33,203 nucleotides of DNA from Sedimentisphaerales bacterium (GTDB lineage Bacteria; Planctomycetota; Phycisphaerae; Sedimentisphaerales; Anaerobacaceae): positions 1-33,203 of the forward strand of contig JAUVXL010000017.1 in assembly GCA_030603595.1 (NCBI GenBank), in the 5' to 3' direction. A program made the position numbers and the translations under genes. The notes under the pieces were generated by a model. The model was not told the DNA's origin. It made no database searches and saw only the letters and a list, made by a program, of their open reading frames with translations. Numbering within the stretch: the stretch's first letter is position 1; the number at the start of each line of letters is the position of its first letter. Shown piece by piece: positions 8,830-11,578 of this stretch.

Positions 8830-10905
8830 ATGTCGAGTAATTTAGAGAAATTGCGTAATATTGGGATTATGGCCCACATCGACGCCGGTAAAACGACAGT
8901 TACCGAGCGCATTCTCTATTACGCGGGCAAGACTTACAAAATGGGAGAGGTCCACAACGGGACCGCGGTTATGGACTTTATGGAGGAAGAGCAAAAACGC
9001 GGGATTACTATCACCTCCGCTGCGACAAAATGCCCGTGGAAGGAATTCGAGATAAATCTTATCGATACTCCGGGCCATATCGATTTCACGGCGGAGGTCG
9101 AAAGGTCTTTGCGGGTCCTCGACGGCGCTGTTGCCGTATTTGACGGCAGCGAGGGGGTCCAGGCACAGAGCGAGACTGTTTGGAGGCAGGGCCGGGAATA
9201 CAATCTGCCTTGTATCTGCTTTATCAACAAGATGGACAAGATCGGGGCCGATTTCGAGATGTCCGTCGAGAGTATCCGCGACAAGCTGCTGGCGAATCCT
9301 ATTGTTCTCCAGCTTCCTATTGGTGCAGGGGATTCCTTTGCCGGCGTCATAGACCTTATCAAAATGCAGGCTGTGTTTTACAAGACCGAGCAAATGGGCG
9401 CGACTTTCGAAGAGGCCGATATTCCAGCCGATTTGTTGGAAGCGGCCGAGCGGCAGAGACGCGAGACGATCGAACTTGCAGCCGAATACGACGAGGAGTT
9501 GATGGATCGGTATGTCCATGATGAGCCTGTTGGCGCCGAAATGATCTGCCGGGCCATTAGAAAGGGGACTTTGGCCAACGAGCTTCATCCCGTATTTGCG
9601 GGGTCAGCGCTGAAATACATCGGCGTCCAGAGGCTTCTCGATGGCGTGTTGGCCTACTTGCCCTCGCCGCTGGACAGGCCGGTTCTCACAGGACACAACC
9701 CATCCGATAAAAAGAAGGAGATCGCCGTCAAGTGCGACCCGAAGGGCAGTATGGTCGCCCTGGCATTCAAGATTACAAGCGATGCGCACGGAGATCTTTA
9801 CTTTCTGAGGATATATCAGGGTAAATTAAAATCCGGGTCCAGGGTTCTGAATGTTAATCGCGAGAAGCGCGAAAACATTACCAGGATTTTCGAGATGCAC
9901 GCTAAAGAGCGAAAGATCCTGGATTCCGCGTCTGCCGGCGATATCGTGGCGGTCGTCGGCCTGAAACAAACGCTTACCGGGGATACGGTTTGCGACCCGA
10001 AGAAGCCGGTTGCGCTGCCGAGCATAGCGTTTCCTCAGACCGTTATCAATATGTCGATAGAGCCGAGGACTACTGCTGAAAAGGCGAAATTGGGCGAAGC
10101 ACTGGCCGATTTGAAGCGTGAGGATCCCACTTTTGAGTGTAAGTTTGACAGCGAAACGGGCCAGACGATCATCAGCGGGATGGGCGAGCTTCATCTTGAA
10201 GTGCTCCAGCATAAGCTTGTAAAGGAAAAAGGTGTCAACATCAGGGTTGGCAGGCCTCGGGTGGCTTATAAAGAAGCCATCACACGCGCGTCAGAGGTAG
10301 AGGGTAAGTTTGTGCGTCAAACGGGTGGTCACGGCCAATACGGCCATGTTGTCCTAAAAATCGAGCCGCTTATTACCGAGGATGGCCACTGGAGTCGGGA
10401 TATTGAATTTGAGTGCAAGGCGGGGGGAGATGCAGTGCCCAGAGAGTACGTTTCCGACGTTGAGAGAGGGGCCAGAGATGCTTTGGGCTGTGGCGTTTTA
10501 GCGGGCTATCCTCTTGTGGGGCTTAAAGTTACGTTAATTGATGGCTCGTTCCATTCGGTAGATTCGTCGTCGTTGGCGTTCGAGCAGGCTGCCGCTATCG
10601 CAGTAGAAAAGGGGCTCAAGGCTGCAGGGCCGGTGCTGCTTGAGCCAGTAATGCGCCTGGAGGCGATTGTGCCGCAGGCCAATTTTGGCGCCGTGCAGGG
10701 AAGTCTGCTCGCGAAAAGAGGTCTAATCAGCGGTTGTCGCATCCATGGGAATATGCAGGTTATCGACGCCAAGGTTCCGTTGGTTGAAATGTTCGGCTAT
10801 TCGAGTGAAATCAGGAGCGCTACGGCGGGCAGGGGGTCGTTTACTATGGAGCCGCTGAGCTACGAGAAGGTGCCTGACCAGATCGCCGGGCGGATCATTA
10901 TCTGA
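8830..10905 (+). CDS. fusA: Elongation factor G (translocase GTPase)
   Basis: EF-G (691 aa) drives tRNA-mRNA translocation and, with RRF, ribosome recycling. G-domain motifs are all present: AHIDAGKTT (residues 15-23), [10 protein letters not shown] (57-66), DTPGH (79-83) and NKMDK (133-137). Domain IV has GGHGQYGHV and FHSVDSS, which keeps the tip-loop histidine. The start at ATG 8830 gives [18 protein letters not shown], which matches family N-termini. ATG 8806 or TTG 8782 would add 8 or 16 residues without homology. Domain V diverges from the common EYMGDVIGDL pattern, reading [15 protein letters not shown], so it may be one of several EF-G paralogues known in planctomycetes. No tuf follows. 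Confidence 0.95.
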
Positions 10906-10927
10906 CCGAGAAAAAGGTTGAATTTTT

Positions 10928-11090
10928 TGGCATGGTTCAATTCTGGGTGGCAGCCTCAAGCGCAGCTTGGGGATGGCAAAGCTCCGAAAGCGGTGCAACC
11001 ATCCCTCCCTTAGGGAAGGCTGCCACACTCTATGAAACCACAAATAATGTTACCTGGAATTTGATTTATTTGAACCATGCCAGTTTTTTT
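10928..11090 (+). terminator. Terminator-like long hairpin after fusA, loop interrupted by a structured element
   Basis: A perfect 13-bp inverted repeat brackets this region: TGGCATGGTTCAA (10928-10940) and TTGAACCATGCCA (11070-11082). The right arm runs into G plus seven T, then GTG and seven more T. That is the signature of the fusA terminator. Its loop is 129 bases, far longer than usual, because an 80-base four-way-junction element (10947-11026) lies inside it. Whether termination still works with this loop is unknown. Confidence 0.65.
10947..11026 (+). repeat. Palindromic element folding as a linker-free four-way junction
   Basis: Four helices close with no unpaired base at the junction. 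P1 is GTGGCAGCCT (10947-10956) with AGGCTGCCAC (11017-11026). P2 is CAAGC (10957-10961) with GCTTG (10965-10969). P3 is GGGATGG (10970-10976) with CCATCCC (10999-11005), carrying a 22-base apical region. P4 is TCCC (11006-11009) with GGGA (11013-11016). The 26 base pairs are all Watson-Crick. It may be a mobile REP-like palindrome inserted in the terminator loop, or a structured RNA; I recognise no named family. No clear target-site duplication is visible. Confidence 0.7.
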
Positions 11091-11107
11091 GTGTTTTTTT
11101 CAAAATT

Positions 11108-11136
11108 CTCCTCGACGTTTTGTTGACATCGAGGAG
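11108..11136. promoter_or_regulatory. Dyad overlapping the S10 promoter -35 box (candidate operator)
   Basis: CTCCTCGA (11108-11115) and TCGAGGAG (11129-11136) form a perfect 8-bp inverted repeat separated by 13 bases. The -35 hexamer at 11123-11128 lies inside the spacer, directly beside the right arm. A dimeric regulator bound here would block polymerase. The dyad is seen directly; the operator role is inference. Confidence 0.4.
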
Positions 11137-11151
11137 TCGGCGTGGTATATT
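11123..11151 (+). promoter_or_regulatory. Promoter P1 of the S10-spc-alpha superoperon
   Basis: TTGACA (11123-11128, consensus), a 17-base spacer, and TATATT (11146-11151, 5/6) with TGG directly upstream resembling an extended -10. Transcription would start near 11158, leaving a leader of about 420 bases before rpsJ. This is the strongest promoter-like sequence I found in the window, and it follows the fusA terminator T-runs. Confidence 0.82.
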
Positions 11152-11157
11152 CAACGG

Positions 11158-11578
11158 TTTTCAGCCGTAGCGAGCATCGTCAGGGACGACTTTGCGTGAA
11201 ACCAGTTGGGCTGTGGCACGTCTGTAAAATGATGGTCAAGGATGGTTTTGTAGTAGTCTGTCAGACTTTGGGGTGTACCATAAGCCCTCAAGAGGCTTTG
11301 GAAGGGCCAGGGCTGGTCCGAGACCCAGACTCTTTAAGGAAGGCGAGTTACTAAAGCCTCTCCTGCCGAAACGAAACGACGACTTTTGGCTGATTGCATT
11401 GCAGATCAGTCGCACGGTGGAGTTGTTGTTTTGCGTTGCTCTTTTGCTATAAGTTGATATGCAACAAGCTTTTATACGCTTGAGACGATATAGTTCCGAT
11501 AATATATTCTGCGTTGTCTGCTGATTTTGACTGAGTTGGTGGTTTAGGCGACGCCGGTCAGTGGTGCAGAGGACAATT
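11158..11578 (+). promoter_or_regulatory. Long structured 5' leader of the S10 operon
   Basis: About 420 untranslated bases separate P1 from rpsJ. AGAGGCTTT (11291-11299) pairs perfectly with AAAGCCTCT (11353-11361). The same left arm can instead pair with AAGCCCTC just upstream (11282-11289), so two exclusive folds are possible. A TCGTC/GACGA hairpin lies near 11176-11188. Ribosomal protein leaders are often autogenously controlled (L4 acts on the S10 leader in E. coli), but this sequence resembles no leader or riboswitch I know. A 41-codon frame (11229-11354, starting MMVKDGFVVV) lies within it, without a visible ribosome binding site. Confidence 0.5.
11480..11508 (+). promoter_or_regulatory. 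Candidate second promoter P2 of the S10 operon
   Basis: TTGAGA (11480-11485, 4/6), a 17-base spacer, and TATATT (11503-11508, 5/6). The start would be near 11515, giving a short leader of about 65 bases that skips the structured part of the P1 leader. Tandem promoters are common for ribosomal operons. The region is AT-rich, so chance matches are possible. Confidence 0.5.

Follow-up and report, generated by a model that had tools for sequence, protein, structure and literature searches.

The four-armed fold between fusA and the S10 genes of a Sedimentisphaerales bacterium is a small mobile DNA with two mirror-image REP palindromes, inserted into the spacer between these genes. It lies in the window, i.e., the whole 33,203-nucleotide stretch of contig JAUVXL010000017.1 that was analyzed, from a genome of 4.3 Mb in 361 contigs (G000 below). 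NCBIfam matches place rpoB, rpoC, rpsL, rpsG and fusA upstream of it and rpsJ, rplC and rplD downstream. We consider it highly probable that the element is a non-autonomous, MITE-like transposon with 12-bp GGCATGGTTCAA ends, an 8-bp target duplication and AT-rich targets, the centre of which is a REPIN made of two members of a GTGG-footed REP family, 22 nt apart.

Table 1. Positions in the window of the inserted element, its parts and the neighbouring promoter-like site.
Feature	Position	Strand	Basis or length
Left 8-bp target duplication AATTTTTT	10921-10928	.	7/8 identical to 11082-11089
Whole MITE-like element, 153 bp, non-coding	10929-11081	+	near-full-length copies of 79-91% identity; 27-copy alignment
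Left terminal inverted repeat GGCATGGTTCAA, 12 bp	10929-10940	+	pairs with 11070-11081; 96.9% of cells paired in 27 copies
REP 1, GTGG foot and imperfect palindrome, CAAGC/GCTTG tip	10947-10976	+	pattern match; solo fold
Linker between the REPs, 22 nt	10977-10998	+	22 nt in 25/26 parsed copies, 23 in one
REP 2, inverted, TTCCCTAAGGGA tip	10999-11026	-	minus-strand pattern match; solo fold
Four-way junction P1-P4, fold of the inverted REP pair (REPIN)	10947-11026	.	folding and copy alignment
P1	10947-10956/11017-11026		10 bp
P2	10957-10961/10965-10969		5 bp
P3	10970-10976/10999-11005		7 bp
P4	11006-11009/11013-11016		4 bp
Right sub-terminal part, contains AAATAATGTTACC	11027-11069	+	common to copies; also in the REP-free 66-bp form (L081 = G000:C354, others)
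Right terminal inverted repeat, complement of GGCATGGTTCAA	11070-11081	-	27-copy alignment
Right target duplication AGTTTTTT	11082-11089	.	7/8 match to left copy
S10 operon promoter-like site TTGACA-17-TATATT	11123-11151	+	11/12 matches; TTGACA kept in most relatives read

The fold of the element

The initial annotation of this region had described four helices of 10, 5, 7 and 4 bp that follow one another without linkers at 10947-11026, with 26 Watson-Crick pairs that chance would hardly give. The helices were confirmed directly from the sequence and all 26 pairs by a pair list, and P1 to P4 were recovered as the minimum-energy fold of the RNA as well as of the DNA on both strands. When folded as RNA, positions 10928-11100 had z-scores against dinucleotide shuffles of -4.71 and -6.18 on the two strands, positions 10947-11026 as single-stranded DNA had z-scores of -6.09 and -5.81, and in each of these four tests 0 of 200 shuffles folded equally well. 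The outer stem had been given as 13 bp, of which 12 bp (10929-10940/11070-11081) are real, but the 13th pair, 10928-11082, belongs to the flanking duplication. An Rfam search of positions 10800-11500, with E-values up to 5 allowed, yielded no family that reached its gathering score, the best E-value (0.32) being that of an unrelated intron domain.

Across 27 aligned copies, 97.5% of the cells in the terminal inverted repeat, P1, P2 and P3 are paired. Most of this pairing is conservation, not covariation, because P1 hardly varies, and double-sided changes were seen at three pairs, in one cell each. A further fold had been suggested, in which the left outer arm would pair imperfectly with TGAAACC just after P1. 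Read by eye in the alignment, AACC is kept there in 5 of the 27 copies, and the copy L003 is without the TGAAACC stretch entirely; this fold was rejected, as the pairing is not conserved across the 27 copies.

The core of the element is two REPs in inverted orientation (REPIN/BIME), and each of them, REP 1 (30 nt) and REP 2 (28 nt), folds alone with an unpaired 5' GTGG foot and an imperfect stem. An inverted pair with unlike tips would have to fold as a four-way junction because the paired REPs share their arms but not their tips: the outer arms would pair with each other (P1), as would the inner arms (P3), and each tip would fold on itself (P2 and P4). Tips and linkers could be parsed in 26 of the 27 copies, L221 with its nested palindrome being left out; in 25 of these 26 the tips are unlike. 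L002 has both tips alike and could form one long hairpin instead of the junction.

Copies, ends and target duplication

A blastn search for further copies, as had been proposed at the outset, returned 41 matches to the 96-base core and 43 to the 156-base element in the window's own genome. That genome holds at least seven copies of the element, short forms included, and copies are present in five other genomes too, in many unrelated places. Near-full-length copies of 79-91% identity were found in G000, G011, G014, G015 and G029 (five of 61 genomes), with one more in G071. In a one-genome-per-species collection (84,980 species), from which the window's own genome is possibly absent, a 25-nt pattern joining the left end to the REP foot matched 29 stretches; these lie in five assemblies, each of which bears Planctomycetota or Phycisphaerae in its title. 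All named matches to the element are from Planctomycetota.

The ends of the element are bordered by a duplication of fixed length. Among 30 flanked elements, 22 have an 8-bp duplication with at most one mismatch, as opposed to 2.8% of cross-paired flanks, and after merging one twice-assembled insertion (L173 and L228, which have identical flanks and are one insertion on two contigs) the count is 21 of 29 distinct elements. No such peak is present at other lengths, with 3/30 at 7 bp and 0/30 at 9 bp, and the remaining 8/30 elements have 2-6 mismatches between their 8-bp flanks. The 30 elements were hand-picked from 66 end pairs after the mismatches had been displayed; pairs nested in a longer element, chance-like pairs, the degenerate L026 and L125, and pairs with too little flank were excluded, elements failing the duplication were retained, and L206 was included despite its different interior. 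The targets are AT-rich, and the duplications flanking dispersed copies are A- or T-rich.

Not all forms of the element carry the REP pair. The 66-bp form L081 is without REPs and has a perfect CAATTATC duplication, and L171 is a single-hairpin form. L206 (2074-2212, G000:C243) is a second element of 139 bp, with the same ends, an unrelated interior and a perfect 8-bp duplication. In L164, L221 and L225 (G011), G015:C538 and G011:C87, short segments of the element and REP tips are interrupted by, or have given way to, small GC-rich palindromes (of the CCGCCGCGGCGG type and other kinds), which appear to be nested hairpin replacements. We looked for an autonomous partner among inverted end pairs 0.7-2.5 kb apart; none was found on inspecting 20 regions with unpaired or uncertain GGCATGGTTCAA sites in these fragmented assemblies, nor among the matches listed when 6 genomes were scanned with a 13-mer allowing one mismatch. 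Most unpaired GGCATGGTTCAA sites looked like chance, and one of them is L206.

The element thus has the properties of a MITE, being short, non-coding and multicopy, with terminal inverted repeats, a target duplication of fixed length and an empty site in relatives (see below). The notion of a mobile palindromic element, already raised by the initial annotation, is borne out by the copies in this and five other genomes, the target duplications and the empty site.

The REP family and its tips

The most abundant part of the element family is a repeat of about 30 nt, GTGGCAGCC-tip-GGGATGG. The pattern GGCAGCCTN{6,36}GGGATGG gave 59 rows in the window's own genome and 0 for the reversed control. 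As one repeat was reported twice, there are 58 distinct REPs: 44 stand alone and the other 14 form seven pairs, each of them inverted. Five of the pairs lie inside the transposon with its ends and target duplication, and the pairs on C96 and C232 lie outside such ends. At least one copy of the REP pattern was present in 23 of 61 genomes, a set made up of the window's own genome and those of relatives as far out as the order. The REPs are only moderately extragenic, with 15/51 lying in an ORF of at least 120 aa compared with 510/1020 random places.

The tips are replaced wholesale between copies, yet they stay paired. The 145 repeats in the loci that we collected have 67 distinct tips, and 336 of 378 tested tip positions are paired, against 311.8 (sd 3.4) with the 3' arms reshuffled, where 0 of 1000 reshufflings scored as high. 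At P4, four unrelated sequences occur, all of them hairpins: TCCC/GGGA, CATCCCC/GGGGATG, CATCCCGAT/ATCGGGATG and CAAATCC/GGATTTG. We also observed, at about 1400-1460 of L003 (G000:C255), a GTAG-footed palindromic repeat (GTAGTACGGGCTTCCAGCCCGTGC) that adjoins the element copy and is probably a separate REP family.

The link to RAYT genes

The window's own genome has six Y1_Tnp matches. One of them, on G000:C16, is a RAYT of 188 aa that scored 99.2 bits (cut-off 80) against NF047646 REP_Tyr_transpos, the REP-associated tyrosine transposase. REPs lie on both sides of this gene, and these are of a sister type (GGGTGGCACGCTCAAAC...GTTTGGGCGTGGC; CGCTCAAAC stem), not of the window type; no window-type motif was found near the RAYTs of this genome. 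The locus (L094 1090-2010) is a textbook REPtron, in which near-identical arrays of CGCTCAAAC-stem REPs and a third type (GTGTGGCACCTTCAAAC) flank the RAYT on both sides.

The 61 genomes were searched with this RAYT, and 29 of the loci so obtained were scanned for GTGGCA...TGG hairpins. Among these loci, the RAYT clade has 8 near-complete genes of 52-100% identity, six of which have REPs on both sides (one each in G000, G020, G029 and G040, two in G045); the other two, in G030 and G042, have no REP by this pattern. Some REPs were found with 3 of 5 RAYT gene fragments and with 0 of 16 distant Y1 genes, and the reversed control was 0 in all 29 loci. In G029, which has more REP rows (142) than any other genome, the RAYT is flanked by window-type REPs; the gene has an internal stop. 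Across the clade the foot and outer arm are kept as GGGTGGCA..TGG, and the stems differ between RAYTs. G045 has ten matches to the query RAYT, two of them with distinct GGGTGGCA-footed REPs of their own on both sides.

The empty site and alternative explanations

In all relatives read between fusA and rpsJ, the same-genus sisters G001 and G002 included, the element is absent. With the element and one duplication taken out, the joined window flanks align with the spacers of G001, G002 and G015, where the same T-rich spacer runs into TTGACA (this comparison took in the window and 7 of 11 relatives). The initial annotation had counted against its own reading both a joint lack of covariation and of other copies, which was not what we found, and unrelated DNA at the same place in close relatives, which is indeed there and which fits an insertion. 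In the window the element simply occupies the T-rich DNA that separates fusA from the S10 promoter, and the promoter-like site downstream of it is intact after the insertion. Farther downstream, the S10 operon has a long leader (11150-11530), the sequence of which is strongly conserved among relatives. In an alignment of 11 of the 12 fusA-S10 loci (L193, with a long insertion, was omitted), a near-invariant AGGAAGGC/GCCTTTCCT pairing encloses a variable insert, RNAalifold predicts 38 pairs, 5 of them changed on both sides, and no Rfam family reached its threshold on this stretch; it is possibly an undescribed ribosomal-protein leader RNA.

The region had been taken for a fusA intrinsic terminator with a loop made larger by a palindrome that inserted without disturbing the stem, and a stem of 12-13 bp followed by a T-run does exist. 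However, the relatives without the element share the T-rich spacer, so the T-runs are older than the insertion, and the outer stem was not part of an ancestral terminator of fusA; no such stem is present upstream of the T-run in G001, G002, G015 or the other relatives read. The stem arrived with the element as its own inverted repeat, and dispersed copies with their target duplications have it at their ends. A terminator scan, which allows loops of 3-8 only, finds nothing, and, contradicted by the empty site, the terminator reading is scarcely tenable. We regard it as highly improbable that the fold is a structured cis-acting RNA controlling read-through from fusA into the S10 operon, as was also suggested; it is very stable and is in the sense orientation relative to both genes, but the element is absent from the same-genus sisters, its copies sit in many other contexts, and a promoter-like site is kept downstream for the S10 operon. 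A terminator-like or mRNA-stabilising effect of the element is conceivable as a by-product.

Two other readings concern the family as a whole. It is unlikely that a RAYT moves the entire 153-bp unit as a large REPIN, the 8-bp duplications being of other cause. RAYT genes are flanked by REPs of the same superfamily, and the pairs on C96 and C232 are REPINs without long ends, both of which speak for this reading, but the precise 8-bp duplications and the REP-free 66-bp form with its perfect duplication accord with a transposase that acts on the ends. Also against it, we know of no target duplication made by RAYT-type single-strand transfer. Barely conceivable is a palindrome family that is not mobile and is kept to bind a host protein; REPs elsewhere are described as host-protein binding sites in one account (PMC6006769), but the target duplications and the empty site demonstrate insertion and contradict it.

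Proposed mechanism

We therefore return to the MITE-like transposon with a REPIN at its centre. The ends and the duplication are observed, as are the empty site, the many copies, the anatomy of the REPs and their neighbourhood with RAYTs; how such an element would move is drawn from established families. The whole element may be moved in trans by a classical transposase that staggers its target by 8 bp, and a RAYT (TnpA-REP) reading the GTGG foot and the stem may disperse the internal REPs as single-stranded hairpins. A more speculative extension, which we put forward tentatively and think rather doubtful, is a nested element of dual mode, i.e., a classical transposon that captured a RAYT-type REPIN, so that two unrelated chemistries could move it. 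The tips would then be exchanged as cassettes with the four-way architecture kept, which would imply that the junction is recognised or selected; the P4 tips considered here are four unrelated sequences, fully or nearly paired.

Comparison with known systems

The component parts of the element are of known kinds, and the composite of a REPIN inside a MITE appears to be undescribed in the literature searched. Among the matches listed there was no report of REPs inside MITEs or of REPINs inside such a transposon, nor of REPs in Phycisphaerae. Target duplication is typical of bacterial MITEs. RUP, NEMIS, ERIC and others are described (PMC3733652) as short and non-coding, with inverted ends and a foldable transcript, and the element is likewise short, non-coding and foldable with inverted ends. 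Unlike them, it has a REPIN core, and its autonomous partner was not found in the genomes scanned.

Like REPINs and BIMEs, the core of the element consists of two inverted REPs with a short linker, is dispersed and has a predicted single-strand fold, and the legend of one supplement (PMC3116915) mentions both hairpin and "clover" folds for REPINs. In contrast to these, the tips of the window family are unlike in nearly all parsed copies, giving a four-way junction and not one long hairpin, and most pairs in the window's own genome lie inside a transposon with ends and a target duplication. Canonical REPs are described as having a 5' GT[AG]G and lying within 1 kb of a RAYT gene (PMC6006769), and GTGG replaces GTAG in one REP family according to PMC3733652. 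The window family resembles the REPtrons of RAYT/TnpA-REP systems in its GTGG foot, its imperfect stem and the REPs on either side of the RAYT gene; it differs in that the GGGTGGCA..TGG foot and outer arm are constant across the clade while the stems vary, and in its hosts, which are Phycisphaerae-like Planctomycetota.

Significance

What appeared to be a regulatory RNA between two core operons becomes a lineage-specific insertion. The REP-free, single-hairpin, same-tip and different-tip forms make up a natural series for asking by what route REPs enter mobile elements of other kinds and how the tips come to be replaced. The RAYT clade, with its common GTGG foot and outer arm and its diverging stems, makes it possible to test directly which features a RAYT reads.
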